Below, piece by piece: positions 12,242-31,660 of a DNA stretch of 31,660 bases. A program made the translations under genes and the position numbers. Origin of the DNA: a virus; the IMG/VR virus record IMGVR_UViG_3300025687_000196, positions 1-31,660 of that record. The stretch is one strand, 5' to 3'. A model generated the notes under the pieces. It was not told where the DNA came from, made no database searches, and worked only from the letters and a program-made list of their open reading frames with translations. Position 1 is the stretch's first letter. Every line of letters begins with the position of its first letter.

Positions 12242-14683
12242 ATGAGCTTCACCTGGTCTGGAGATTTTAATACCTGCAACTTCTGGCGTCCTTTTGCTGA
12301 GGATCGCCAGCGGGTGCTGGATCAGACGGTCGGGATGCGAAGTCTCCATGCGGGGGGTGGGGTTGGTGGGAAATCTTTGACTCGTACTTTGTCTCAGGTA
12401 TATTTCCCCGTGCCTGGGGTGAAGATTATGATTCAGATCAACCCGCACCATATTCATATTATGGCGGAAGGTGGGTGCAAACATTATCTAGAATCCGGGT
12501 TTTATGAGATTTATAGTACCGCTATATATAATGAAGGGTCATATATAGCCGAAAAGTTACGCTTAATCGAGAACGGTTTTGTGGAAGCGGTGATGTCCTG
12601 CGAAATAACGGGCGTTTCTGGGCCTCCGCAAGGTGAGTTAAAACCCTCGAAAAAATCAGCGCCCTTATGCGACTCTGATTTCCCGTTCTACGGGGGAAGG
12701 TGTATGCATGGGGATGACATGCAGGATGGCTTTGAGTCCCATGCTATGGGTAGTCCAAACTTCGAAGGGCAAGACTCTTTGGTCGTCTATTCTGCATCCG
12801 GAGAGCCTAGAATCTTGGAAGGGAACGGGCCATATTATGAAGGGTTACGAGAATTAAAACAGACTCAATTAAAAACACCGAGTTGTTTCTATACAGGTAA
12901 GCTGCAGCTTTTTGTGCAAGCTTTGTATGGAAGTGTAAGAAAGGATTATTACGAGGCTTTTCCTGGACTAGGTATTCCAGGGATTATATTTCAGGGTTTT
13001 TTATTAGAGCGAGATTGTGGGCTTTTGACCACTTCAGACTATCGATATTTTTTGTGCCGTATCAATACTGATGATGTAGTGTCCTTTAGGGAGATTATCC
13101 CGAGCCGCGCTGCTGACTGCTATTTGAAGTTTCTACGAGAATATGGGGAGGAGACGTGGCTAACCTCGAAGCATAAAGCCTATTTAGAGGCTTATATTTT
13201 TTCTGCTTGTGATCTAGCGGCGGAAGATACCGAGCAGCGCGTCTCTTTAGGCTTTAGTGCCGCGTTTGAAGACACTATCGATGGTTGGAAATTCGCTAGA
13301 GAGCGCAACGAATTTGCGGCCATTGTCCATGAATTTATCTATGTAGACGCGAACGATAGTCATGGGCACATGCGTCCTACCTTGTTTGTAGCTACTGTGG
13401 ATTATTTTATTGGGGGTGATGGCGCGGTATCTTTTTCAATATCACACCAAGAGACGGAATATCCGCTATGGCAGCAGAGTCAGTGGTTCGTTGCTTGGAT
13501 CCCGCAATATATGCCTATAGTGTCCCACTATTCATTTGGTGCAGGATACCCTTCTTTACCCGATCCGTCCATCGACGGACCTACTCCGATTGCCGGATAT
13601 TATTCCAAAGATGACGAATACGTCATGTTTTGGGTGAAAATAGAAAAGATTGTAGAGACAACTGGGACGTATGATACCGGACTTCCTTATGCTTGGCCGT
13701 TCTACGAATCAGAGATGGGGGCGTTCTCTAGGAGGTCACGAATTATCGCCAATAACGGGTATAGGTATGAGCTATCTTCCGGTGTAGGGGCCACCCCCAC
13801 CATAGACCGTACCGAAATATGTGAGTCATGGGATGACTTTAAGGATTTAACCTACAAAGAAGTTCAATTTAGATCGGGGCAGTATTTAGGCTCCCCTCAA
13901 AGCTCACTTTCGGCGGCTTATGCTGATAATCGCGAAACACTATATGGCCCGCTTAGTGATTGGTTAAGAGACGTACATAATTGGAGATCGAATAGGGCGC
14001 CGCCTATGGACAATATAGGGGATACGTCTCCCTGGGTGCAAGATTTAAGCTGCTCTATAGCTGCGGAGTATGAATCCTATGGGAGTATATACCGTTATGG
14101 GGTTGCTATGGTAGCCCCTATGTTGTACGACCGAACGGGGTTTGTACACGGTATCCATAAATACCACTCGGCCCCCTCTGCTATAGAAGGAGAGGCTCAG
14201 ACCTGGAATGACCCAAGCAATTCGGGCGCATATTCTTTAGGGCATCAGTATTCCCATCGCGTGGTAGAAGTAACGTATCTTGGTGACGGTAATTACTCCT
14301 ACGGCCCTGAGATAGATAGAGTGGATACCTTATGGTACGCAGTCGGGGGGAATAATTGGTGGATCGCGGAAATACCAATTAATATCCCAGAACATACGTC
14401 GTGGATCTGGCAGGAACATATTAAGGGGTATGCTGAAGAGGTGGGCGATGGGTATACTCTAATCGACGGGTATGAAGAACCCTCAATATATGATCCGTGG
14501 CATGACGTATATTTTAGCCAGCCGCCACTTATTGGGCCGCCTATTATGATACAAACGACATTAATTGGACGTGGGACATTTGGTGGGGCGAGTAAAATAT
14601 TATTTTTTGATATGAATAAATCATTTGATATTGCGGTGAACGGCTTTTCTCGATCTTATTTTTCTGCGGTAGGGTGGATATAA
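12242..14683 (+). CDS. Large unrecognised tail-cassette protein, 813 aa
   Basis: No family recognised. The N-terminus 'MSFTWSGDFNTCNFWRPFAEDRQRV' is followed by a 20-residue Gly/His-rich patch and a strand-rich segment. The body is unusually rich in Tyr, Trp, Gly, Pro and acidic residues (e.g. 'WWIAEIPINIPEHTSWIWQEH' near residue 700), with about ten scattered cysteines, and has no membrane segment, coiled coil or repeats. Aromatic-rich composition suits a carbohydrate-recognising or receptor-binding role. It is flanked by structural genes and coupled to the next by TAATG, so a virion role is likely. By eye it uses GGG, ATA, AGA and AGG codons more freely than the capsid gene. A receptor-binding or depolymerase function is a guess. 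Confidence 0.6.
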   Translation: MSFTWSGDFNTCNFWRPFAEDRQRVLDQTVGMRSLHAGGGVGGKSLTRTLSQVYFPVPGVKIMIQINPHHIHIMAEGGCKHYLESGFYEIYSTAIYNEGSYIAEKLRLIENGFVEAVMSCEITGVSGPPQGELKPSKKSAPLCDSDFPFYGGRCMHGDDMQDGFESHAMGSPNFEGQDSLVVYSASGEPRILEGNGPYYEGLRELKQTQLKTPSCFYTGKLQLFVQALYGSVRKDYYEAFPGLGIPGIIFQGFLLERDCGLLTTSDYRYFLCRINTDDVVSFREIIPSRAADCYLKFLREYGEETWLTSKHKAYLEAYIFSACDLAAEDTEQRVSLGFSAAFEDTIDGWKFARERNEFAAIVHEFIYVDANDSHGHMRPTLFVATVDYFIGGDGAVSFSISHQETEYPLWQQSQWFVAWIPQYMPIVSHYSFGAGYPSLPDPSIDGPTPIAGYYSKDDEYVMFWVKIEKIVETTGTYDTGLPYAWPFYESEMGAFSRRSRIIANNGYRYELSSGVGATPTIDRTEICESWDDFKDLTYKEVQFRSGQYLGSPQSSLSAAYADNRETLYGPLSDWLRDVHNWRSNRAPPMDNIGDTSPWVQDLSCSIAAEYESYGSIYRYGVAMVAPMLYDRTGFVHGIHKYHSAPSAIEGEAQTWNDPSNSGAYSLGHQYSHRVVEVTYLGDGNYSYGPEIDRVDTLWYAVGGNNWWIAEIPINIPEHTSWIWQEHIKGYAEEVGDGYTLIDGYEEPSIYDPWHDVYFSQPPLIGPPIMIQTTLIGRGTFGGASKILFFDMNKSFDIAVNGFSRSYFSAVGWI

Positions 14684-15441
14684 TGGCAGGTGATCCTTTT
14701 TACGACGATATGGTTTTGCTATGGCGCGGGAATAATGGTTTTGTAGATGAATCTGATTCCGGGCTTACGTTAACCCCCCAGCAAGGGTATGACAACCCAG
14801 CGTATAATGCAGGGGGGTGGGCGTGGGTAGAGGGTAAGTTCCCAGGGACAACCGCTGGAAAATTACAAGGGAATCGCCCTAGAATATCTATCGGGGCGAG
14901 CCTTTTAAATGGGGCGACTGCCTTTACCCTAGAAGCGTGGGTAAATTCCGGCACATCGGCCACCGGATCGCGGTGGATAGCCGCTCAAAATTCCTGGGGG
15001 GTTGCGTCTTCTTTTGGATTATATATTAGCCACCTAAATGGGGTATCCGTCGCTTATAAACCCGGATCAACCACTTACTCTTTGGCTCAAGGAAACAACC
15101 CCCCGAATAATACATGGGTACATGTAGCGTGGACGCGCTCTGGAGGGACGCACTATTTGTTTATAGACGGAATATTGAAATCATCCGGGGCCGTCTCTGG
15201 GACTATGGGGGCGGAGACAATGTACATAGGTCAAAATTCAACTTCTTCCGGACTGAACTCACACATAATTGACGATTTCATCGTATATAACAAAGCTATT
15301 TATACATCAAACTTCACCCCTAGAACAATGGAGCCTCCGACGTACCAACTTAACGATAAGCTAATCCCTAGAAAAGAGTTACAGCATCGGCAGCCGACGA
15401 GGCTCAACCAAAATTACTTCATCCATAGAACAGGACTCTGA
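14683..15441 (+). CDS. LamG/concanavalin-like tail adhesin A
   Basis: 252 aa from ATG 14683 (TAATG overlap; an in-frame GTG at 14674 would add three residues). Nearly the whole protein is a Laminin_G_3-type sandwich: 'ALTLEAWVNSG'-like strand ('AFTLEAWVNSG'), 'NTWVHVAWTRSGGTHYLFIDG', 'AETMYIGQNS' and 'IIDDFIVYNKAIYTSNFTPRT', the classic closing block. Such domains bind glycans or mediate attachment. The C-terminus 'RLNQNYFIHRTGL' is nearly the same as the end of the adhesin at 17002-18165, pointing to duplication or a shared attachment or trimerisation tag. It probably sits in the virion as a receptor-binding or decoration protein. Confidence 0.75.
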   Translation: MAGDPFYDDMVLLWRGNNGFVDESDSGLTLTPQQGYDNPAYNAGGWAWVEGKFPGTTAGKLQGNRPRISIGASLLNGATAFTLEAWVNSGTSATGSRWIAAQNSWGVASSFGLYISHLNGVSVAYKPGSTTYSLAQGNNPPNNTWVHVAWTRSGGTHYLFIDGILKSSGAVSGTMGAETMYIGQNSTSSGLNSHIIDDFIVYNKAIYTSNFTPRTMEPPTYQLNDKLIPRKELQHRQPTRLNQNYFIHRTGL

Positions 15442-15443
15442 AC

Positions 15444-15860
15444 ATGCCAACCGCATACACGCCCGAAGAGGGTCAACAACTTATTGCTAACATGATCTTT
15501 AAACAAGCTGACTCAAATCGAGGCACTGACCTTCAGCTTGGGCTGATGACTAACACAACGGGCATCGGGGAGACTACCGTCTATGGTGACATTACGGAGC
15601 CTACAGGCGGTAACTACGCCCGCTATACCTTGCTGGATACGGGTTGGACGATCTCTTCAGCAGGGCTGGCTTCGTATGTGAAGCAGGTATTTACTGCGAC
15701 GGTCACGCCTTACTCAGCAGACATTACAGGTTTTTTTATCTGCTCAACGGGCGTTGCCCCTAAGATTCTGCGTATTCAGGTAGAAGATGCGGCGGCCTCT
15801 ATCGCCGTGAACGAAAGCTACGCGGTAACTCCGTCTATTGACATCGGGACTTCGAGCTGA
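15444..15860 (+). CDS. Beta-rich tail-region protein, 138 aa
   Basis: Begins two bases after the previous stop. The order 'YTPEEGQQLIANMIFKQ', 'TDLQLGLMTNTTGIGE', 'YARYTLLDTGWTIS', 'FTATVTPYSADITGFFICSTG', 'ILRIQVEDAA' resembles small phage proteins of similar length (the 138-aa protein at 5022 has the same overall size and strand pattern, though without clear identity). Structural role inferred from context. It separates two LamG adhesins and ends in a TGATG overlap. Confidence 0.6.
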   Translation: MPTAYTPEEGQQLIANMIFKQADSNRGTDLQLGLMTNTTGIGETTVYGDITEPTGGNYARYTLLDTGWTISSAGLASYVKQVFTATVTPYSADITGFFICSTGVAPKILRIQVEDAAASIAVNESYAVTPSIDIGTSS

Positions 15861-17005
15861 TGGCCTACGAACCTATCCCCCATTTAGATAAATACAAGCT
15901 GATTCTACCCCTGAATGACAGCACTCCCACAAATTACGCTCCATACGGGAACTTAGGCATTAGGCTTACTAGGGAAGGGGGGATAACTCACACCGGCGCT
16001 TCCTACAAGCACTACGCAGCTAGTTGGTATAGTGATGGTTCTAGTGATGGTTTGGCCATTACAGGAGGGGCATTCGCTTATGGTACAGAGGATTTCACAT
16101 TAGCTTTTTGGGTAAACGCCTTAACTAGCCCAGAAACCTACCCTTTTATCATGGCGTCGTCCCTATATAACGCAGGGAACGGTTTTATTGTCACTATAAA
16201 TGGCCCAGCAACTGGTTGGGGCGGCCCTGGGGACGTATCCTTCCAAGGGTCTACCGCACTTACTCATAGAGTTTCATTTGGTACAGGTAATGCCTCACCC
16301 ATACTTAACTCAGGGTGGCGGCATATAGCCTTTGTTAGACAAGGGGTAGAACATTACTGCTTTGTCGATGGTGTTTTATCACAACAGGTAACTGCCACTG
16401 GATTAGCAGATTATCAAGAATACCAAACTCCTCGCCTTTGGGGAACTACAGACGCATACACCGCTGGTGATTTTAAAGGGTATTTACAAGACGTTATCTC
16501 CGTTAAAGGGGCTGCCTTATGGACTTCGGATTTTACACCTCCTGGGCCTTTAATTGAAACAAGTTCACTAGGAAACATAATTATAGCGCCTACCAATCCC
16601 ATACCTTTTACGCTATCGTTATCCTTAGTAGAGTCCTTGAGCGCAACAAATTTTTCTGCGGTTGTTACTAATGCTAATACCGGGTTCATTATGTCAAAAA
16701 CAACCGTTTCTGGCGCAAACCCTACTATCAACCTCAGCACAAATGACCCTTGTTTTGTCACACTATATCCTGATTATGGCACGATATGGGCAGCAAATAC
16801 TGCTTATGCGCTCAACGACAAAGTATTCCCAACCGACCCCGCGACCACCCCGTACTATTACGAATGCACCACGGCGGGAACCACTGGTGCGACAGAACCG
16901 ACATGGCCGACATCCGCTGGAACAGTCAATGACGGGACAGTGGCATGGACACTTGTTGAACAAATGGTTCAGCCCATTACTCAAGGCCCCTTGATTCCGA
17001 CATGA
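15860..17005 (+). CDS. LamG adhesin B with C-terminal carbohydrate-binding-type domain
   Basis: 381 aa. Residues about 50-230 are a LamG/concanavalin-like sandwich ('DFTLAFWVNALTS', 'GWRHIAFVRQGVEHYCFVDG', 'GYLQDVISVKGAALWTSDFTP'). A linker at about 230-300 includes 'KTTVSGANPTI', related to a motif at the start of the next protein. Residues about 308-367 form a separate unit, 'WAANTAYALNDKVFP', 'YYYECTTAGTTGATEPTWP', 'DGTVAWTLVE', the pattern of short chitin-binding/CBM5_12-like modules common at fibre ends. So one chain offers two potential glycan-binding modules. TGATG at the start and ATGA at the end couple it to both neighbours. Confidence 0.75.
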   Translation: MAYEPIPHLDKYKLILPLNDSTPTNYAPYGNLGIRLTREGGITHTGASYKHYAASWYSDGSSDGLAITGGAFAYGTEDFTLAFWVNALTSPETYPFIMASSLYNAGNGFIVTINGPATGWGGPGDVSFQGSTALTHRVSFGTGNASPILNSGWRHIAFVRQGVEHYCFVDGVLSQQVTATGLADYQEYQTPRLWGTTDAYTAGDFKGYLQDVISVKGAALWTSDFTPPGPLIETSSLGNIIIAPTNPIPFTLSLSLVESLSATNFSAVVTNANTGFIMSKTTVSGANPTINLSTNDPCFVTLYPDYGTIWAANTAYALNDKVFPTDPATTPYYYECTTAGTTGATEPTWPTSAGTVNDGTVAWTLVEQMVQPITQGPLIPT

Positions 17006-18165
17006 CTGATTTTGTATTTACGGGAAATCCTTATACCCCGTCTGGGTCGTTTACGTTCCAGATATATACAATCATCCATGATGCCACCGGTGTCGGATCC
17101 GTTCTTATTGCGCAGACCTCAGTTTCTGGAGCGAATCAGGCTATCGGCGTAGGGGCTATAAGCCTAACGGGGCTGTCCCCTACGCAACACATTATTAATC
17201 GTATCGGCGTTGGGTCGATTGATTTTAAGCAGACCTCCGCTGTAGAGTTTATCGTAAACCACGTTGGGGTCGGGTCAATACAGGTAAGGTGGCTGTCGTG
17301 GGTGACCCACCCAATACAGAAAGTAGGAATAGGGGGTATCCCCGCCACGGCATCTTCTGCGGTAGAATATATCCCCTATCTGTTTAACCCCGGAGTTGAC
17401 CCACAGTTTAACTTAGTGGAGATATATACCGGATGTGGTTACTATGGCGGGGCAACCGATTGCCGGGAACGCTCCCGTAACCACCACGTGTTAACCTCCG
17501 TGAATGGGGCGCAAGTGGTAAAGATGGAGCCAACTTATAATGGCGGGGTCTACGCTTTAGATGGGGTTAATCAATACATTAGTTCCGACGTTGGCATCAG
17601 TATTGCCCCTTCATCCTCTGACTTTACGATGGAAGCGCGTATTTACCCGAACAATATAACTGCTGACGGGGGTATCGGATTCATCGGTACGTTCGGCTCG
17701 TCTGCGGGTGAGATTGCCTTTATACTTACGGCGAATTACGGTCTTGTCGGGTATGTGAATGATGGTCTCGGTACTACCATCTCCGTAGCGACTGCTGATG
17801 CGGTAGTTGGCAATCAGACGTGGACGCATGTTGCATTTAGCCGTAGCGCATCAGAGTTGACGTTATTTGTCGATGGGGTAAAATTAGCGTATACCGCAAT
17901 AGGAGCGACCTCATTTATCCCCGTAGAACAGTATTTTGTAGGATATGCGTTTTATAACGGACTGGATACTTACTTCAAAGGATTTATAGAAGATGTTATT
18001 TATTGCCGGGCTGATAAGTACCCGTCAGAGTTTACTCCGAGGGAGCGATCCTACCGTTATGAGTTACCGATAGATTCTCGGGAGTTTGAAGAGCGTAAAC
18101 AGAAACGACCTGCACGACCCCGAGCACTTAACCAGAACTACTTTATCAACCGAATAGGAATTTAA
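17002..18165 (+). CDS. LamG adhesin C with N-terminal 'RIGVGSI' repeats
   Basis: 387 aa, start in an ATGA overlap. The first 130 residues carry a loose repeat of about 25-28 residues, seen as 'INRIGVGSIDF', 'VNHVGVGSIQV' and 'IQKVGIGGIPA', with 'AQTSVSGANQAIGVG' before them. Residues about 165-345 are a LamG-like sandwich ('DFTMEARIYPNN', 'WTHVAFSRSASELTLFVDG', 'FIEDVIYCRADKYPSEFTPRE'). The C-terminus is basic and ends 'ALNQNYFINRIGI', matching adhesin A. The final INRIGI also echoes the N-terminal repeat. Likely a tail adhesin; the binding target is unknown. Confidence 0.75.
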   Translation: MTDFVFTGNPYTPSGSFTFQIYTIIHDATGVGSVLIAQTSVSGANQAIGVGAISLTGLSPTQHIINRIGVGSIDFKQTSAVEFIVNHVGVGSIQVRWLSWVTHPIQKVGIGGIPATASSAVEYIPYLFNPGVDPQFNLVEIYTGCGYYGGATDCRERSRNHHVLTSVNGAQVVKMEPTYNGGVYALDGVNQYISSDVGISIAPSSSDFTMEARIYPNNITADGGIGFIGTFGSSAGEIAFILTANYGLVGYVNDGLGTTISVATADAVVGNQTWTHVAFSRSASELTLFVDGVKLAYTAIGATSFIPVEQYFVGYAFYNGLDTYFKGFIEDVIYCRADKYPSEFTPRERSYRYELPIDSREFEERKQKRPARPRALNQNYFINRIGI

Positions 18166-22363: not shown

Positions 22364-22939
22364 ATGACACTAATAGCATCATTCGATAAGAATAATAATT
22401 CTATATCTAGTTTAAAGGGTATAGATCCACCGAATTATACCCACAACAGTATTACTTCGGGGGCGTCTAGAAATAATGTCGCACCCAGTCAAGATTCTCT
22501 GGCTAAAGTGGGTATGCAGCCGAAACGGAATACATTCGATGGAAGTTACAATGTCCCTAAAGGAGGCGTACTGCCGTCGTTTAATACGAAGAATTATATC
22601 TCGTCACTACGGGCTGACACTGCGGTCAAAGTGGGTGATGCCTATCGACGCGGGGATATTACTTCGGATGAGGCGTCTAGGCTGATGCCTCAAGCGGCTG
22701 CTGGGGCTGGAGATATAAGTATGTTGCCAGCACCACCAGCGCCTGTGGCTAGACCGCCTATGCGGGTGGACGGGCTAACCGCCCTTGATGCGTATAAACA
22801 AACTCAATCGAATTTACCGAAGCGCCCCATTAGACGATCCTCCGGATCTACCCCTCTCGATGCTGCGTTATCTCCGACTATTCCTACAACCGACACCGGA
22901 AGTACTTCGTTGGATATACTACTAGACCCGAATAAATAG
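22364..22939 (+). CDS. Low-complexity hypothetical protein, 191 aa
   Basis: Rich in Ser, Asn, Pro, Asp and Thr, with few hydrophobic clusters; probably disordered except for a helix around residues 80-110 ('TAVKVGDAYRRGDITSDEASRLM'). The C-terminus has two near repeats, 'GSTPLDAALSP' and 'GSTSLDILLDP'. No family recognised. GGGAGG at 22353-22358, 5 bases before ATG, is a strong ribosome site. Its place in the block before the giant protein suggests a minor virion or assembly protein. Confidence 0.55.
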   Translation: MTLIASFDKNNNSISSLKGIDPPNYTHNSITSGASRNNVAPSQDSLAKVGMQPKRNTFDGSYNVPKGGVLPSFNTKNYISSLRADTAVKVGDAYRRGDITSDEASRLMPQAAAGAGDISMLPAPPAPVARPPMRVDGLTALDAYKQTQSNLPKRPIRRSSGSTPLDAALSPTIPTTDTGSTSLDILLDPNK

Positions 22940-22977
22940 GATCTTTATGGCGGGCTTAACTTTCTTGGAGGTTTGTG

Positions 22978-24534
22978 ATGGCTATTAGGCAAGCGTACCC
23001 GTTTTTACCTGAAGCAGCCGATGAAATGCGGCGCGTTTCTATACCAATACCGGCGTCAGACTCGGCGATGACTAATGTGAATCGCACTGGAAATGGGGGG
23101 CAATTTAGAATGGATAATGATCTTATAGATCATTATAAGCGGGTACAGGAGCATGGTAATTACCCTCTATCTAAAAGTACAAAAAATCTTAACCCAAATG
23201 GGGGTAGTCCTGTAATGGATGTACTACGTAAAGGGCGAAACTCCGCAGTCGATTATTTAGCATCGACGGGTATTCCTGCGGCTGTTGACTACGTGAGTAG
23301 AGAGGTCATAGAGCCGTCTGCTAATAGGGATAAATTAATTAAGGCGCAGCGTAAAGGGTCTATGGCGGATTTTGCTAATCCTATCAAAGACCTATGGAAG
23401 CCGGTAACCGACTTTTCGCGTAAAAGATGGGAGCCGTTCAGAAAAGATGTAGCCGATTATGGGTTACTCGCCCCTTTTATAGCTCCGGCGAGGGCAAGTG
23501 AACATATTATTAACGACGCTGTAACCACTGGTAAAAATATGTTTGGCGGGCTAACCACCATCGATACTGAATTAAAGCAACTAGCTGGAGGTTCTGGTGA
23601 ATCCGCAAAAGCGTCTGGAGTAACCGACGCGCAAAAACAAGCGCCACCTAAAGGTAAAGCGTATGTGCCCCCTAAGTCTGCTCCAGCGGCACAACCCAGC
23701 GAATACTTTGATAAAGGCGGTGTATCTTATAGAGCATTCCCTAACGCGAAGGCCTTAGATAAGCGCGTTGAGTTTGGTAATGGTAACTACATTGCATCCG
23801 AGCATTTAACCCCTGAGAAGGCGGCCCGTATGGCACAGCATCTGCGGGAGGGGTCGCCTACTGGGCCTAAAGATCCCGTGTATCCTACGTATCAGCCGCC
23901 GGTGTACCAACAAGCTGCGCCACAAGGTTTGACGATGCAGGATATGTTGGACATGATGCCGGAGCAGCGGGGTGATTTGACTCGTGCGGAAAACGCTCGT
24001 ATTCGTAGACAGCAGAATATCATGATGAAGCTGTTTGCGAACCAGCCTAACCCTGCTCAGGGTAAGGCGGCTGATCCGTTGGGGGCTTATAAGAAACAGC
24101 TAGAAGTTATGAACCTGCAGCAGCAGATGGGTATTAATGCGGATACGGCCAGACGGAACGCGATTAAAGATCATAATGAAGTTGCTAAGTATAAGAACCG
24201 ATATGCACAGGACACTCAAAAGAATCGTCAGGCTGCATTCAAATCGAACCTTGATTTAGCTAAAGCCATTTACGGCGATGACCTTGCAACGGCTTTTGTT
24301 AAGTCTGTCGGGCGCGGCGATAAGCTCCTAAAAGATAGAGGGTTCCCGGTTCGTGCTGCGGACATGGATGCGGATCAGTTTAACGCACTGATGCAGTTGT
24401 TCGCCCCAGAATATCAAGCGGTTAAGGAATCGAATACACCTTGGATCGGCTATGCCGACCCGATAACTACTGAACAACTAGATAATATATGGACTAGGAT
24501 GTTCTCTAAAAAGGCTAATCCCGCCGTACAATAG
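22978..24534 (+). CDS. Putative internal virion protein, 518 aa
   Basis: ATG 22978 is chosen because GGAGG at 22967-22971 lies 6 bases upstream; GTG at 22975 is an alternative. No catalytic motif recognised. Residues about 70-185 are helical with alternating basic and hydrophobic segments; about 200-250 is a Lys/Ala/Pro linker; about 305-450 is Gln/Met/Asn-rich helix ('MLDMMPEQRGDLTRAENARI', 'KKQLEVMNLQQQMGINADTA'). Gln-rich helical proteins of this sort, placed just before a very large virion protein, are typical of ejected internal proteins of podoviruses. The role is inferred from composition and neighbours. Its last 20 bases overlap a candidate antisense gene. Confidence 0.6.
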   Translation: MAIRQAYPFLPEAADEMRRVSIPIPASDSAMTNVNRTGNGGQFRMDNDLIDHYKRVQEHGNYPLSKSTKNLNPNGGSPVMDVLRKGRNSAVDYLASTGIPAAVDYVSREVIEPSANRDKLIKAQRKGSMADFANPIKDLWKPVTDFSRKRWEPFRKDVADYGLLAPFIAPARASEHIINDAVTTGKNMFGGLTTIDTELKQLAGGSGESAKASGVTDAQKQAPPKGKAYVPPKSAPAAQPSEYFDKGGVSYRAFPNAKALDKRVEFGNGNYIASEHLTPEKAARMAQHLREGSPTGPKDPVYPTYQPPVYQQAAPQGLTMQDMLDMMPEQRGDLTRAENARIRRQQNIMMKLFANQPNPAQGKAADPLGAYKKQLEVMNLQQQMGINADTARRNAIKDHNEVAKYKNRYAQDTQKNRQAAFKSNLDLAKAIYGDDLATAFVKSVGRGDKLLKDRGFPVRAADMDADQFNALMQLFAPEYQAVKESNTPWIGYADPITTEQLDNIWTRMFSKKANPAVQ

Positions 24535-24664: not shown

Positions 24665-24758
24665 ACTCACCCCCAAATAGCTAGACCTTACCACAGGTTC
24701 ACTATCCACGGCAACATGATATAATCCTAGCAACTCATTATAATTACTAGGTTATGCT
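24535..24758 (+). promoter_or_regulatory. Intergenic control region before the giant gene, incl. shared leader element copy B
   Basis: TTCACT 24698-24703, 16 bases, TATAAT 24720-24725 form a fair sigma70-like promoter giving a leader of about 27 bases. A second TATAAT at 24739-24744 lies in ATTATAAT, so it reads the same on both strands. CCTAG 24726-24730 and CTAGG 24747-24751 flank it as an inverted repeat. TATAATC 24720-24726, GCAACTCATT 24730-24739 and GGTTATGCT 24750-24758 are identical to blocks before the hub gene at 10.5 kb. The rest holds the antisense candidate. Confidence 0.55.
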
Positions 24759-27700
24759 ATGGCTGGTCTCACAAGTCCTTATCAAGCCCCATCCATCTGG
24801 GAATCTGACGAAGATATCCAGTACGCACCCAATCGTTTCATCCATGATGGCGATACGCTTGTAGATACCGCTACGGGGCAACGAGTGCGGGTCGGTGGAA
24901 TCCAAGCCCCCGAGATGTACAACCCTCACAAGAATACACCACGCGAAGTGGGTGGACGTGAAGCAACTGCCGCCTTAGCCGATTACGTTACCCAACACGG
25001 GTACAATCCTACGTTCTCTGGGCAAGACAAGTACGGTCGGGATGTTTTAACTGATCCCGATCTGTCCGCATACATGGTCGCCAACGAATACGCATCACCC
25101 ATGACCGGGTTCGATAACCTGAATCCTCAGTTCAAAGACCGAATAACGCAGGCAAATACCGAAGTACAGTTACGCAATCTTGCGGATACGTCTTATGGAT
25201 ATAACCCCTACGGCGGATCACCATACGATGTTCTCCCGGCCCCTTACCACAGAGACCCGAGCACGGGCGTCATGCTGACTCGTGCGATCAAGCGTGGCAC
25301 CGACCAACTCCAAGGCGGCTTGTACGGAGCGGCGCATACTGCGGCCAGAGCACTTGGCGCTGACGGCTTAGCACAATGGGCGGAGACCGGAGTACAGCGT
25401 AACGAAGCCGAAGCAGCTATGAACCCAGCACGATATACTTCGTACAAAGACGTTAAGGGCGTCGGAGACTGGATACCGTTCGCAGCTGAGAAGGCCGTTG
25501 AGTCATTGCCGCAGATGCTGCCGTACGCGGTTGGTGGTCTTGCCGGTGTAGTTGGTAAGACGGCTCTGGGTAAGCTTGGGTTTGAAGTATCCAAGACCGC
25601 AGCTGCTCGGACTGGCGCGATGGCGCTAGGAACTCCGGGTCACATGGGTGAGATCGAGAACGAACAGATGCAACTGGCTGCGGATCGGCAAGCCAGTCCA
25701 CTCGAAGTGATGGCCGCCGGTGTTGTACGTGCGGGTCTGGATGTATTCGGGATGGAGAAAGCACTGGGTAACGTGCTGGGTGAGACTGCGTCCAAGTCTG
25801 CGATGGATATCGCTAAGAACGTATTGAAAGGTATCGGTGCGGGGGCGTTGGCTGAAGCACCAACCGAAGCAGCACAAGAGGCGATCGCTATTGGGCTGCG
25901 TTCAGTACATGATCCTGAGTACGATCCGTTTGGTACCGATGCTATAGAGCGATTGAAAGAATCGTTCATCGCAGGTGGTGCCGCAGGAGGGTTCACTACG
26001 GGCATCGGACGAGGTGCGAAGGCTGTGCTGGATTACTCTGGGGAGAAGATGGCTTCGAATGAAGCTGATAAGCCAGCGGTGAATACTCAGCAGAGTACTA
26101 CGACGGCAGATACTCAGCAGAACGCTACTGAAACCGATCCAGCAATGCAAGATTTGATTCGGCGTGCGCAGGAGTTTGAGGATCAGCAGTCTAGTGATCC
26201 AGAAATAGGGCCGGATTCTCGGGTGTTTTCCGCTGATCAGGAAGAGGCCATCTCAAATATCCTGAACCCTACTTATGGGGATAACCCTACTTCCGAAGAC
26301 ACTGCGCGGGCTGTTACCCTCATCAAAGAGTTGTACCGAGCTTTGGGGGGTACTAAGGAAGAACTGATGGATCGCTTGCAGGTGAACGGATACTTCTTGA
26401 CTGATGCGGTTAAAGAGGCGCTTGGATGGAAAAAGGCCGCCACGAATACAGAGTCTGGGTATTCTGACGATCAGATCAACTGGTTACGTGGTCGCACTAC
26501 GGAGGCGAACTACTGGCAAGATACTAGGGGCGAGATTGATTCGGACATCAATGCTAACACGACAAATATTCTACGCGAGAAAAATCTGAATCCTAACCTA
26601 CAGGCGGAAGGGAAAGTGGTCGAGGCCCTCAAACGCATGCGGGAAACTAAATCACCGCAAGAGGTGCTCGATCTTCTGATGGCGCATGATATCAAGCCTA
26701 ATGATGCGATACTTGAGGCGGCTGGACTTAAACCGAAGGTCACTAATGTAGAAGGGGCGGGCTTGGATCAAGCAGGTATGGATACGGAGATTCCATCTAA
26801 CTTAGATCAAGCAGACATGGATACGGAGATTCCATCTAACTTAGATCAAGCAGGTATGGATACGGAGATTCCATCTAACTTAGATCAAGCAGGTATGGAT
26901 ACGGAGATTCCATCTAACTTAGATCAAGCAGGTATGGATACGGAGATTCCATCTAACTTAGATCAAGCAGGTATGGATACGGAGATTCCATCTAACTTGG
27001 ATCAAGTGGGCGGTACAGGTGGAGCGAAGCTCAATATTAAGAATTTAGCTTTGGCGGCGAAGGATTCAAGTGAGGAGGCTACTCCGCCTGTAACTACGTT
27101 ATCCGAACGCTTAAGTACAACTTTAGCTAAGGCCTCCTCCGCAGCACAACAGTATGTAAAGAAAGACATTGAGAAAGCCAAGCGTGCAAATAAGCTAATT
27201 GCGTTTAGTAACGTAGAATCTTCTACGTCACGTTACGCAGAAGCGGCAGGCGATATGGCTAACACAGGTGAATATGAAGCGACCGATAGTGTAATGGTTA
27301 GCGTTAACGGCGCTCGTAAAGGAGCTACTCCGTTTGCTAAGAACACTCCGTTACATGAGGAATTAGATAAAGCCATTACTGCTGGGGCTACTATCTTAAC
27401 GGATGATGCTGCTAACCGCAATCGAGCGCATAACGTAGGGGAGCGGGCATTAGCTACGCATCTTAAAGGTAAAGGGTATGCGGAGACGGAAGCGGGGGTT
27501 TGGACTCCGAATCAAAACCAGTCTAAAACCTCTGCACTTGGGGATAAGGCCCGCGAAGTGTACGGCGAAGTATCGAGTGGAGATGCTTCTACAACACTCG
27601 ACCCAAATCAATTATCTAAGTCTATAGCCGAAGCCTTTGGTATTGAGGTCGAAACACTAAAAGAAGGCGACCCAGAAACCGTAAAAATGGGTAAAGCTGA

Positions 27701-30700
27701 GGGGCAACGCGGAGCTATCTCTTGGTATGACCCGGCCAATAAGAAAGTTCATTTCACTAAAAAATTATATGGCCACCTTCGTAGCAAAGATCCTATAGTA
27801 AAAGGTTTAGGCTTAGAAACTGTAGCCCATGAGATGGGGCATGCCGCTATTTATCAGTTTTTGCATGAAGGTAAGATCACACAAGCTACAGCTAAAAAGC
27901 TCAAGATCGACTACGATGCTTATCTGACTGATGTGAAGGGTAAAACACCATCCGAACAGATGGCCGCTAGAAGTACGATTCTTCGCGGGCTCAAACGGCT
28001 AACGGCGGGGGATGAACGTGCAGCGAAGAAGGGTGATTACATCCTGAGTTTTGATGAATGGCTTGCTGATGAGGCTGCCAAGTATCTGTTACAACCCGAT
28101 GTTATTACTAAATGGACTCCAGAAACTCAATCCTTTATTCGTAAACTTGCCGGATACCTACAGAAGTTAATTAAAGAATTTATGGGTGTGTACCGCATGG
28201 AAGGCGAGGGTATTAAGGCCTTCTTTGCCGAACTAGAGAGTGCTCGTGCTCAGAGTGAAGCGAATTCTAAGGTAAGCAGCACCTCTTTCGAGTCAACTCT
28301 CCCTCCTTGGGAGGCTGAAAATTTTGCCGGTAGTTTAGGTGATTTAGGTGCCGGTATCACGCCGCCTAGCAATCCTAATGATGGGTTAGTTGGCTCGACT
28401 AACGACACTGTAAAGCCTAAGGCTAAAGTAAGCAACAAACTCTCAGACACAACCGAAGTCCTTAATGCGACGCAGGCGTCTGAAGTGGATAAAGATGATG
28501 TTTATGGTAACGCTGACCAAGAGGTCGATAAACAGTTTACCGTCCAAGATCCGTATAAATATTCTTCCAGTCCTGTGAAATCTCTGAAAGACCTAGAGTT
28601 AGTCAAAGGGTATATGGAGGATTATAGTAAGAAACTGTTTGATACGTTACGGGCGGAACTTAAAGGGCGTAAGGATACTAACCGTGCTTTAGGGGATGAG
28701 CAGGAGCAACTAGATTTATTAAGTGGTGAATTCGTTGTTGCTAGATATTACCCTTCCAAAGACTCATTAACTCAGGCGTGGGGTTACTTCCCTAAAAGTG
28801 CGGTGGTTAATGGTGTAGTAGATACGGTATTCGCGGAGAATTTCCATAACAGTCTAGACTCATATTACACGATCACTGCCGAAAAACGTAGAGATGGCGA
28901 AGTTTATTACGCTATGGAATCCCATCAGAGGGAGGCTTCCAGTCAGCAAGGTATTACAGACGCGAGCATTAGGGCTCGTATAGAAGACGCCATAAAACGA
29001 GTTAATGATAAATCTCGGACTCGCCCAGCGGAAGAAGCTGTATTCTCGATCAACGACCCAGAAGGTAAACCTGTAAAGGTCGCTGCAACGGCCATAACCG
29101 CATTAGGTAAGGCTATCAACGGGTACACAGCGAACCTTATGAAAGTCGAAGAAGCGCAACGAATGTTTTCAGACGGCGTAACTGAGATGATGTCTCGATT
29201 TGGCTACACCCCTATAGAAGGGGGCATTCCGAATAACTTGATTATATACAACCGTAAGGCGAAAGCAGGTGGGCCGATTCGGTTGAACACGAAACCGGAA
29301 GCTAAGGTCGAGAAAACCTATACTGAAGTTGATGAGAATGGTAATGCTATTGATGATGGGGGAGACGCTGTTTATTTAATGGATGAAAACGGGGATTTGT
29401 TTGATCCGGAGACGATGCAACGAGTAACATTCACGGATGCGAAGACTGGTGAGGTACAGAGATTTGCTGAGGAATCTGCTAAGCGTGATACGTCTGTGCC
29501 CTATCTACCGCGGAAGAAGGAATCGACTAAACCTAAAGACCGCTTTTACGCCCGCGATAAGAACTTAGCCTCGATCGAAAAGCTCTTTAATTCAATCGTT
29601 GAGAGTTTAGGTATAAAGATCCCGTTCGCAATTTCACACGATTATAAAGCAGTTAGAGCGCAGTTAGAGCGCGAACTTAAGAACTCTAAGCTCACAGAGG
29701 CACAACGCGGAGCTATACAGTCGGCGCTACGGTCTATGGAAGGCGGAAAGCAGGCGGTTATTATCTATAATGACTGGTATAAGGATGCGAAGAAACGTAA
29801 ACCGATGATTTTCGTACCGATCACTGAGGGTATGAACGCAGTGGATCAAGCGTATGCCGTAGCGCATGAGATCGGGCATTTAATCAAACGCTATCGTGTG
29901 GATGAAATCATAGAACGAGCCCGTAAGGGGGATGTTAAGGCCAAGCAGGTGATCATGTTCCTGTTCCCGGATAACAATATGCGGAATGCTATGCTCAATA
30001 AGAGCAATGTGGAATGGAGGTCATCATCTGCATCGATGGTTGCGGATGAAGTGTTTGCTGCAAACTTTGCACGGTGGGTAACCGAGCGTAGATCACAGTC
30101 CCCAGAAGCGGAGTCGTTCCTGAAATCACTCTGGAATGAGCTGCTAGAGTTTTGGAATCAGCTGAAAGAGAAGCTGTTACCGAATGCGATGGCTCCTATG
30201 ACTAAGAGCAAAGCGCAAGGTGGCTTGGGTTACTCTAAAGAACGTGCTGCGAAGGAGGCTGAAAAGCATTACGAGCGGTTGGGTCGATTCCTATCATCTT
30301 TGACTACGGGCAAAGCACTAGATACTGCGCCGTTGGTTAAGACCTCAATGGATCTACAAGCGGGGTCAAAACCCTTGCAAGAACTGGAGGCTAAGCTTAA
30401 AGAGGCTAAAGCTAAGCTGGCCAGTATCAAGGATGAGCAGGGCATCGCGATTATTAAAGCCCGTATTGCGAAAATGGAAAGTGAGCTGCTTGAAGGGGAT
30501 ACATTACCCACATACGGAGAACTAAGCGCTAAGGAGTGGGAGATATTAACCCGGCTCGAGAAAGCTCGTATTGAGCTCGGTAAAAAGTTCTCTAAGAAAG
30601 CCGAGGCTAAGGTTAAGAAGATTGAAGCTGAGCTGGTTTGGCACCGGGAAAATAATCTGCGGGCTCGTATGGCTAAAAATATCGAGCTTGCTAAGCGAGA

Positions 30701-31660
30701 TTTACAGGCCATGTTACGTAAGTCTAAAGCTGAGGAAGAGCGTGCACAACTACGCGACATGATCAGTGTTATGGAAGCACAGCGACTTGATTTGGTTCAA
30801 TCGCTTATACCTAAAGAGGTGGCTTTACGTTACGTCAGTCTGGGTGATCTACTATCCTACGCGGGAACAGTCCCGTACTTAGACCCTAAACTTGGCCCTT
30901 CGTCTCAGCGTTTAGATGGCGAGCAGATGTATCAAGGGGCTAAGAGCTACGCTAAAGCAGTAGGCGCTAAGGTGCAAGGCGGTAAATACTCCGGCCCTGC
31001 GCTCAGTGGGTTGTCTGCGTTCGTCAAGGATCTGGATGTGTTCTCTCCGGTTATACGATCTATACGCTCAGAGCTGTATGCGATGGATTCATCTACATCG
31101 AAGCTGATCGCTGATGTGTTTGACACTACGCCGGGTAAGGATATGCATGCAGGTGGTACGATACACTCACAGGTGATGGTGGAAGAAGGGCGCTGGCTCC
31201 CTCAACTGGCGGCTGTACTGGATAAGCTGCCTAAACCGTCGGGTAAATGGTTTCGTGATGCCGATCTGCAGGGTAAGGATGCAGACCAGATGGCGTTGTT
31301 TAAAGAAATCGGGGAGCATTTGAATAAGAGCACGAAGTTATCGTACATTCAGAACCCCGAAGTACGCCAACATGTTAAAGCCGTTCGCGATTTCCTACAG
31401 ACGTTTATGTTTGGTAAAGGCGGTATGAACGCCAAGTATAATTTGAATGTTAAGGAGCGCGAGAACTACTTTACGGGTGTACTTAACCTTGAAAAGTGGC
31501 GGGCTAGTCAAGCTGAGGTCATTCAGATACTGCAAGACGTGGCCGGTATGAGCGGACAACAAGCGGCTCACCTCTGGGCGGAGGTCTCTAAACTGAACGA
31601 TGGTGCGTTGCTGGATGTTAACCCTGCGATGCTGGATAGTGTGTTGGCTCCGAACCTGAG
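24759..31660 (+). CDS. Giant polyvalent virion-type protein: SNase-like, two HExxH peptidase-like domains (runs off the right edge)
   Basis: At least 2300 codons without a stop; the C-terminus is outside the window. (1) Residues 27-110 resemble staphylococcal nuclease: DGDT 30-33, R44 and E52 with the spacing of R35/E43, and DKYGR 90-94 giving the R87 equivalent; the calcium-ligand Asp of 'IDAPE' is Gln49. (2) About 195-415 is Gly/Ala-rich with hydrophobic helices ('SLPQMLPYAVGGLAGVVG', 'EAPTEAAQE'), as seen in ejected virion proteins. (3) Residues 670-747 are six 13-aa repeats. (4) HEMGH 1024-1028 with 'FDEWLADEAAKYL' near 1097-1110. (5) HEIGH 1703-1707 with 'ADEVFAANFARWV' near 1762-1775; each pair fits a gluzincin-like HExxH...E site. 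(6) A coiled coil about 1873-2016. This multi-domain build is that of phage polyvalent proteins, packaged in the virion and delivered to the host. Start: ATG 24759 with AGG about 8 bases upstream; the ATG at 24754 is in another frame that soon stops. Confidence 0.85.
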   Translation, partial: MAGLTSPYQAPSIWESDEDIQYAPNRFIHDGDTLVDTATGQRVRVGGIQAPEMYNPHKNTPREVGGREATAALADYVTQHGYNPTFSGQDKYGRDVLTDPDLSAYMVANEYASPMTGFDNLNPQFKDRITQANTEVQLRNLADTSYGYNPYGGSPYDVLPAPYHRDPSTGVMLTRAIKRGTDQLQGGLYGAAHTAARALGADGLAQWAETGVQRNEAEAAMNPARYTSYKDVKGVGDWIPFAAEKAVESLPQMLPYAVGGLAGVVGKTALGKLGFEVSKTAAARTGAMALGTPGHMGEIENEQMQLAADRQASPLEVMAAGVVRAGLDVFGMEKALGNVLGETASKSAMDIAKNVLKGIGAGALAEAPTEAAQEAIAIGLRSVHDPEYDPFGTDAIERLKESFIAGGAAGGFTTGIGRGAKAVLDYSGEKMASNEADKPAVNTQQSTTTADTQQNATETDPAMQDLIRRAQEFEDQQSSDPEIGPDSRVFSADQEEAISNILNPTYGDNPTSEDTARAVTLIKELYRALGGTKEELMDRLQVNGYFLTDAVKEALGWKKAATNTESGYSDDQINWLRGRTTEANYWQDTRGEIDSDINANTTNILREKNLNPNLQAEGKVVEALKRMRETKSPQEVLDLLMAHDIKPNDAILEAAGLKPKVTNVEGAGLDQAGMDTEIPSNLDQADMDTEIPSNLDQAGMDTEIPSNLDQAGMDTEIPSNLDQAGMDTEIPSNLDQAGMDTEIPSNLDQVGGTGGAKLNIKNLALAAKDSSEEATPPVTTLSERLSTTLAKASSAAQQYVKKDIEKAKRANKLIAFSNVESSTSRYAEAAGDMANTGEYEATDSVMVSVNGARKGATPFAKNTPLHEELDKAITAGATILTDDAANRNRAHNVGERALATHLKGKGYAETEAGVWTPNQNQSKTSALGDKAREVYGEVSSGDASTTLDPNQLSKSIAEAFGIEVETLKEGDPETVKMGKAEGQRGAISWYDPANKKVHFTKKLYGHLRSKDPIVKGLGLETVAHEMGHAAIYQFLHEGKITQATAKKLKIDYDAYLTDVKGKTPSEQMAARSTILRGLKRLTAGDERAAKKGDYILSFDEWLADEAAKYLLQPDVITKWTPETQSFIRKLAGYLQKLIKEFMGVYRMEGEGIKAFFAELESARAQSEANSKVSSTSFESTLPPWEAENFAGSLGDLGAGITPPSNPNDGLVGSTNDTVKPKAKVSNKLSDTTEVLNATQASEVDKDDVYGNADQEVDKQFTVQDPYKYSSSPVKSLKDLELVKGYMEDYSKKLFDTLRAELKGRKDTNRALGDEQEQLDLLSGEFVVARYYPSKDSLTQAWGYFPKSAVVNGVVDTVFAENFHNSLDSYYTITAEKRRDGEVYYAMESHQREASSQQGITDASIRARIEDAIKRVNDKSRTRPAEEAVFSINDPEGKPVKVAATAITALGKAINGYTANLMKVEEAQRMFSDGVTEMMSRFGYTPIEGGIPNNLIIYNRKAKAGGPIRLNTKPEAKVEKTYTEVDENGNAIDDGGDAVYLMDENGDLFDPETMQRVTFTDAKTGEVQRFAEESAKRDTSVPYLPRKKESTKPKDRFYARDKNLASIEKLFNSIVESLGIKIPFAISHDYKAVRAQLERELKNSKLTEAQRGAIQSALRSMEGGKQAVIIYNDWYKDAKKRKPMIFVPITEGMNAVDQAYAVAHEIGHLIKRYRVDEIIERARKGDVKAKQVIMFLFPDNNMRNAMLNKSNVEWRSSSASMVADEVFAANFARWVTERRSQSPEAESFLKSLWNELLEFWNQLKEKLLPNAMAPMTKSKAQGGLGYSKERAAKEAEKHYERLGRFLSSLTTGKALDTAPLVKTSMDLQAGSKPLQELEAKLKEAKAKLASIKDEQGIAIIKARIAKMESELLEGDTLPTYGELSAKEWEILTRLEKARIELGKKFSKKAEAKVKKIEAELVWHRENNLRARMAKNIELAKRDLQAMLRKSKAEEERAQLRDMISVMEAQRLDLVQSLIPKEVALRYVSLGDLLSYAGTVPYLDPKLGPSSQRLDGEQMYQGAKSYAKAVGAKVQGGKYSGPALSGLSAFVKDLDVFSPVIRSIRSELYAMDSSTSKLIADVFDTTPGKDMHAGGTIHSQVMVEEGRWLPQLAAVLDKLPKPSGKWFRDADLQGKDADQMALFKEIGEHLNKSTKLSYIQNPEVRQHVKAVRDFLQTFMFGKGGMNAKYNLNVKERENYFTGVLNLEKWRASQAEVIQILQDVAGMSGQQAAHLWAEVSKLNDGALLDVNPAMLDSVLAPNL
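26766..26999 (+). repeat. 39-bp tandem repeat, six copies, in frame in the giant gene
   Basis: Units start at 26766, 26805, 26844, 26883, 26922 and 26961, followed by a truncated seventh (GATCAAGTGGG at 27000). Copies are almost identical at DNA level: unit 2 differs at two bases and unit 6 at the last base. Each encodes DQAGMDTEIPSNL, an acidic flexible linker. Near identity implies recent expansion by slippage or recombination. Confidence 0.97.

Follow-up and report, generated by a model that had tools for sequence, protein, structure and literature searches.

What is the giant protein encoded at the end of this viral sequence, and would it enter the host together with the phage DNA? The window, the whole stretch of DNA analysed here, is a complete IMG/VR record of 31,660 bases without end repeats. 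In it, a reading frame begins with an ATG at 24759 and continues stop-free to the contig end for 2300 codons, the last of which ends at 31658. Because the record is a fragment, the contig stops within the gene, and the true C-terminus of the protein is missing. A search of IMG/VR with the last 59 bases for an extension of the contig found no exact match. The preliminary description had reported this frame accurately. It had also proposed a polyvalent protein that enters the host with the DNA, which is still the best reading, based on the genome position, the polyvalent domains of sister giants and the match of the first zincin-like domain (zincin-1). We consider it probable that the product of the frame is a polyvalent protein ejected by a podovirus that is capsid-related to the Bcep22-like phages; its virion location, cleavage and activity are putative. 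The features discussed below are:

1475-2575, + strand: major capsid protein (PF13252, PHROG 334).
22975-24534, + strand: 519-aa gene directly upstream of the giant gene, at the place of JC1 gp68 (510 aa, virion protein) by position only.
24759-31660, + strand: giant ORF that runs for 2300 codons up to the contig end, its 3' part missing.
24840-25160, + strand: SNase-like domain, residues ~28-134 (PF00565, PHROG 452, alignment to plasmid thermonucleases).
25272-26036, + strand: Ala/Gly-rich amphipathic region, residues 172-426 (similarity to PVS_24; Kyte-Doolittle).
26762-27006, + strand: linker of tandem repeats, in which a 39-bp unit encoding the 13-aa unit LDQAGMDTEIPSN occurs 6.3 times.
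27147-27518, + strand: SLOG-like alpha/beta domain, residues ~797-920 (phmmer, AF2, family alignment).
27591-28208, + strand: zincin-1, residues ~945-1150, with HEMGH at 1024-1028 (27828-27842) and candidate third ligand E1100 (28056-28058).
28446-29498, + strand: uncharacterised region, residues 1230-1580, with no match in searches of Pfam and the local ORF sets.
29556-30197, + strand: candidate zincin-2 (weak), residues ~1600-1813, with HEIGH at 1703-1707 (29865-29879) and candidate third ligand E1764 (30048-30050).
30366-30848, + strand: Lys/Glu/Leu-rich helical, coiled-coil-like stretch, residues ~1870-2030 (composition).
30876-31660, + strand: start of a C-terminal module, in which ENYFTGVLNLEKW (N2236) resembles by eye KNYFPRVWDKGTI of the giant L117; the remainder lies beyond the contig.

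Source virus and genome position

The capsid protein is 47-51% identical to those of the best-matching Bcep22-like podoviruses, including Itty13, Pavtok, Atu_ph08, PBC5, JC1 and others. The same capsid is found in IMG/VR contigs at 100% and at 83% identity. Judged by sequence, the source virus is a short-tailed phage (podovirus) that is capsid-related to the Bcep22-like phages. One criterion for a polyvalent protein is that it is encoded with virion genes. Here, capsid, tail and virion-protein family matches lie upstream of the giant gene and run on the same strand up to it. Elsewhere in the window, the genes at 14674, 15860 and 17002 (14674-18165) are mutual paralogues with matches to baseplate-wedge and virion-structural PHROGs, and they probably encode fibre or spike variants. 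Two TATAAT-type promoter-like sites are found at 24698-24744, in the 225-bp gap upstream of the giant gene; this gene may be transcribed from a promoter of its own.

In Bcep22-like phages and most of the relatives that we fetched, the tail genes are followed by a giant ORF of about 1760-5010 aa. Usually a gene of 350-800 aa stands immediately before this giant, at the end of the tail genes, as in JC1, Pavtok and many relatives from IMG/VR. These sister giants are of the DarB/PLxRFG/LPD type. Their domains include LPD38, LPD39, ART-PolyVal, MuF_C, InPase, SNF2 and methylase, a catalogued kit of polyvalent proteins (PMC5512222). In purified JC1 virions, 51 unique peptides came from gp69, the positional counterpart of the window giant, and the preceding gp68 was detected as well (PMC9144972). 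Since capsid relatives have giants at the same place and JC1 gp69 is in virions, the window giant is most likely an ejected polyvalent protein.

No sequence similarity was found between the window giant and the sister giants tested, so its link to them is by position. The 519-aa upstream gene agrees with its JC1 neighbour in size and place, and a sequence match between them was not found. This gene and the one at 22364-22939 precede the giant gene at places that match JC1 virion proteins; detectable relatives of the two were not found, and they are possibly fast-evolving ejection partners. No full-length relative of the giant was found by tblastn in phages and plasmids or in scans of IMG/VR, for which the queries were the entire protein, its first 430 residues, each of the two zincins and the amphipathic region. 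PDB sequence searches gave nothing useful.

Domains of the giant protein

By its sequence, the N-terminal SNase-like domain is real but borderline. PF00565 scores 17.0 bits (E 0.0083) in hmmscan and 21.4 bits in a six-frame search, barely above the 21-bit cut-off. PHROG 452 ‘endonuclease’ also matches the domain (E 3.6e-4), and phmmer with the local ORF set aligns it with two plasmid SNases (E 4.5e-6 and 1.7e-5). The domain is 28-35% identical to plasmid thermonucleases and keeps the aligned DGDT, Arg, APE and YGR elements (RVRVGGIQAPE, KYGR). In S. aureus SNase, Arg35, Glu43 and Arg87 are catalytic, and Asp21 and Asp40 are metal ligands. Equivalents of Arg35, Glu43, Arg87 and Asp21 are all present in the alignment, but Asp40 is replaced by Gln, changing IDAPE to IQAPE (GIQAPE versus GIDAPE). 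The SNase-like domain named in the preliminary description is present, but it is weaker than stated there, given the score and the changed ligand. A PF00565 search of 39 other records, including JC1, Pavtok, Atu_ph08, PBC5 and Itty13, gave no SNase match.

Residues 172-426 resemble the same region of PVS_24 from Vibrio phage VS-ABTNL-3, with a blastp E of 2e-10 against PVS_24 alone and 9e-9 in a set of 24 giants, and a phmmer E of 1.4e-5. The best 19-residue Kyte-Doolittle mean is 1.16 in this region and 1.18 across the whole protein, so these are Ala/Gly-rich amphipathic stretches and not classical membrane spans. Hydrophobic segments of the ejected-protein type had been described; the hydrophobicity is only moderate. 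The repeat linker that follows was correctly recognised.

The domain at residues ~797-920 had been overlooked. AF2 predicts strands alternating with helices, with a block pLDDT of 73-94 over most of the domain. It recurs within the giants L117, L118, L119, L120, L121 and L123, with phmmer E down to 3e-25, and in giants of cyanobacterial conjugative plasmids, including the 2581-aa WP_011316719.1. L119 is an N4-like virion RNA polymerase (PF21769 E 3.6e-32). Stand-alone phage proteins of Kuja and VPALA also match. We infer that the domain is SLOG-like from the GNAxGTD of the plasmid members and the fold pattern. The corresponding ORFs are at 2446-12339 in L119, 2263-9258 in L117, 1-9447 in L118 and 1498-11199 in L120. 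The domain also occurs in L126 (243-5492), a contig of a Sphingomonas MAG; in all of these it is unannotated.

It is quite conceivable that the SLOG label is wrong and that residues 797-920 form another alpha/beta domain, perhaps one of ribonucleotide metabolism. A GxAxGxD-type loop is a SLOG signature. This loop is absent from the phage members, and in the family alignment the window domain has TDDAANRNRAHNVGER in its place. Neither Pfam at permissive E-values nor a PDB sequence search matched the domain to a SLOG family. The stand-alone genes of the Vibrio phages Kuja (L002, 11971-12381) and VPALA (L084, 2968-3372) are located immediately upstream of the gene for the large subunit of ribonucleotide reductase (NrdA), pointing to ribonucleotide metabolism. 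However, plasmid homologues carry GNAxGTD at the aligned position, and the predicted alternation of strands and helices also favors a SLOG-like domain. At residues ~1502-1756 of L120, the domain is followed by a NADAR / Phage_30_3-like stretch (E 0.0067 for PF08719, and 1.1e-4), hinting at an ADP-ribose link. An association of SLOG with NADAR has been reported for viral SLOG domains (PMC9503650). Designed TIM barrels, a PDB match of the SLOG-like profile, were rejected, as only about 40 residues were covered.

Two HExxH motifs are present, HEMGH at residue 1024 and HEIGH at residue 1703. They are 679 residues apart, in agreement with the spacing of about 680 given before. The count expected from composition is 0.027, and at least two motifs occurred in 3 of 20,000 shuffles of the giant protein. 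A profile of 20 other phage zincins, built without window sequences, finds residues 891-1138 with E 3.2e-4, a score reached by none of 2000 HExxH-preserving shuffles. Zincin-1 also matches PVS_24 (blastp E 1.7e-4). With an HExxH helix, a downstream Glu helix and similarity to polyvalent-protein peptidases, its assignment as a peptidase domain is supported. Zincin-2 has HEIGH and the downstream ADEVFAANFARWV helix, but its score in the same profile is reached by 23 of 2000 motif-preserving shuffles. Of the two peptidase-like domains first proposed, zincin-1 therefore stands, whereas the second is only suggestive of a peptidase. A recent internal duplication as the origin of the pair was not supported (pairwise phmmer E 0.7; only the Glu-helix region aligns). 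Designed ‘Tet4’ proteins, a PDB match of zincin-1, were set aside, as they covered only about 40 residues.

Structure modelling, as suggested in the preliminary description, gave a confident SLOG-like part in the first model, but both peptidase regions are low-confidence, with a mean pLDDT of 50 for zincin-2. In the MAFFT alignments of the second model, only rows up to HExxH were used because MAFFT placed the zincin-2 Glu helix poorly. Fold searches with the models gave unconvincing matches; these were occupied by parts other than the SLOG-like domain, and no zincin or SLOG structure was among the matches listed, which does not argue against either fold.

Self-processing is the published favourite role for polyvalent-protein peptidases. 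Metallopeptidase domains, between one and five of them, occur in about 36% of polyvalent proteins, and about 8% of the proteins with such a domain have more than one, so a pair of HExxH domains in the same protein is nothing new in itself (PMC5512222). The N4 virion RNA polymerase (vRNAP) has kept an HExxH domain but enters the particle without being processed (PMC5512222, PMC12633501), and an HExxH motif is therefore no proof of self-cleavage.

Residues ~1870-2030 are rich in Lys, Glu, Leu and Ala with few prolines. This composition is consistent with long helices; the long coiled coil described earlier is putative. By eye, the last 65 residues of the giant look similar to the ‘NYFPRVWD’ segment of L117, which extends roughly 540 residues past it. 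If the resemblance is real, the full protein would have about 2800-2900 aa. LPD38/39/PLxRFG modules usually sit at the C-terminus of such giants, which here is beyond the contig; no Pfam or NCBIfam match to an LPD38, LPD39 or PLxRFG module was found in the 2300 aa seen.

Proposed role and alternatives

In polyvalent proteins, a single large polypeptide brings together several domains of unrelated biochemistry, and SNase-like, SLOG-like and zincin-1 domains are found here. From its position and relatives, the giant would be synthesised late and packaged into the head, and it would leave through the tail together with the DNA. The amphipathic segment 172-426 probably interacts with the ejection channel or the membrane. 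Once inside the host, the domains would refold on their flexible linkers. Zincin-1, possibly with the second HExxH domain, would cut the polypeptide into working pieces, and it may cut host proteins too. The SLOG-like domain would have a nucleotide as its ligand or substrate, and a defence signal of the ADP-ribose type is the most plausible candidate. The SNase-like domain would bind or cleave nucleic acid, and with Gln at the metal-ligand position it may be weak or binding-only.

Several points weigh against the ejection protein. No full-length relative was found, and the contig does not reach the usual place of LPD38/39/PLxRFG. The upstream gene of 519 aa agrees with its JC1 neighbour in size and place only, models of the peptidase regions are poor, and the SNase has both a borderline score and an altered metal ligand. 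The unprocessed N4 vRNAP argues in the same direction.

It is unlikely that the giant is mainly a structural ejection protein, with a DNA channel built from its helical and amphipathic parts, while the SNase, SLOG-like and HExxH parts lack activity and remain as scaffolds or leftovers. The Asp40 to Gln change, the weak second zincin, the long helical stretch and the Ala/Gly-rich region agree with such a protein. So does a cryo-EM study of N4 vRNAP, the available part of which reports the HExxH motif and does not mention proteolysis (PMC12633501). However, zincin-1 retains HExxH and the downstream Glu, and an independent profile detects it. In addition, conservation of the SLOG-like motifs extends over giants that are unrelated, stand-alone proteins of phages and plasmids, suggesting selection for function.

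A more specific extension of the ejection-protein reading has a slim chance of being right. Within minutes of the start of infection, the virion-delivered SLOG-like domain, released by the joined self-processing peptidase, would capture or degrade an alarm signal of the ADP-ribose type, and the SLOG-like/zincin pairing, which recurs in the unrelated ejected giants L117 and L119, would be a general head-packaged counter-defence module. Least probable is the host attack suggested earlier, with the SNase degrading host nucleic acid and both peptidases destroying host defence proteins on entry: the SNase-like and zincin-1 domains fit it, but a nuclease without specificity that enters alongside the phage genome would endanger that genome, one SNase metal ligand is changed, self-processing is the favoured role of these peptidases, and nothing in the analysis names a host target. 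Metallopeptidases do act as effectors in other conflict systems (PMC5512222).

Comparison with known giants

Ejected polyvalent proteins are a known class, as are multi-metallopeptidase proteins (PMC5512222). What is new is the combination of SNase, SLOG-like domain, zincin and second HExxH. No mention of SNase was found in the polyvalent-protein survey (PMC5512222). A limited literature search found no described protein with this domain order, as the preliminary description had stated. The embedded SLOG-like form deserves attention because viral SLOG proteins are described as typically stand-alone in a survey of viral NAD/ADP-ribose systems (PMC9503650). Ejected giants are the first phage proteins in the cell, and most of their domains are still unread. 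A SLOG-like domain common to podovirus giants, an N4-like vRNAP and conjugative-plasmid giants is a candidate pre-loaded counter to nucleotide-signal defences.

The DarB-like/PLxRFG giants of Bcep22-like podoviruses (JC1 gp69, Pavtok gp27, Atu_ph08) share with the window giant the position after the tail genes, the size class and fused enzymatic domains. Sequence similarity to those tested is not detectable, and the comparison with gp69, which is virion-borne, is by position only. Unlike DarB-like giants, the 2300 residues seen contain no methylase or helicase. JC1, Pavtok and Atu_ph08 in turn have no SNase match.

Like the window giant, PVS_24 (1790 aa) has an amphipathic region followed by a HEMGH zincin, in the same order. 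It lacks the SNase, the SLOG-like domain and the second HExxH, and ends in a PLxRFG module (NF032893). The N4-like vRNAPs (N4 gp50, L119) are giants with an HExxH domain, and their class is known to be ejected (PMC12633501). L119 has the same SLOG-like domain, HELMH about 240 residues after the domain start (226 in the window) and a second HExxH. An RNA polymerase domain was not detected in the window giant, and SNase was not found on the L119/N4-like vRNAP side. In WP_011316719.1, where Pfam recognises no further domain, the same SLOG-like domain lies inside a giant of a mobile element, a cyanobacterial conjugative plasmid, and has the GxAxGxD loop.
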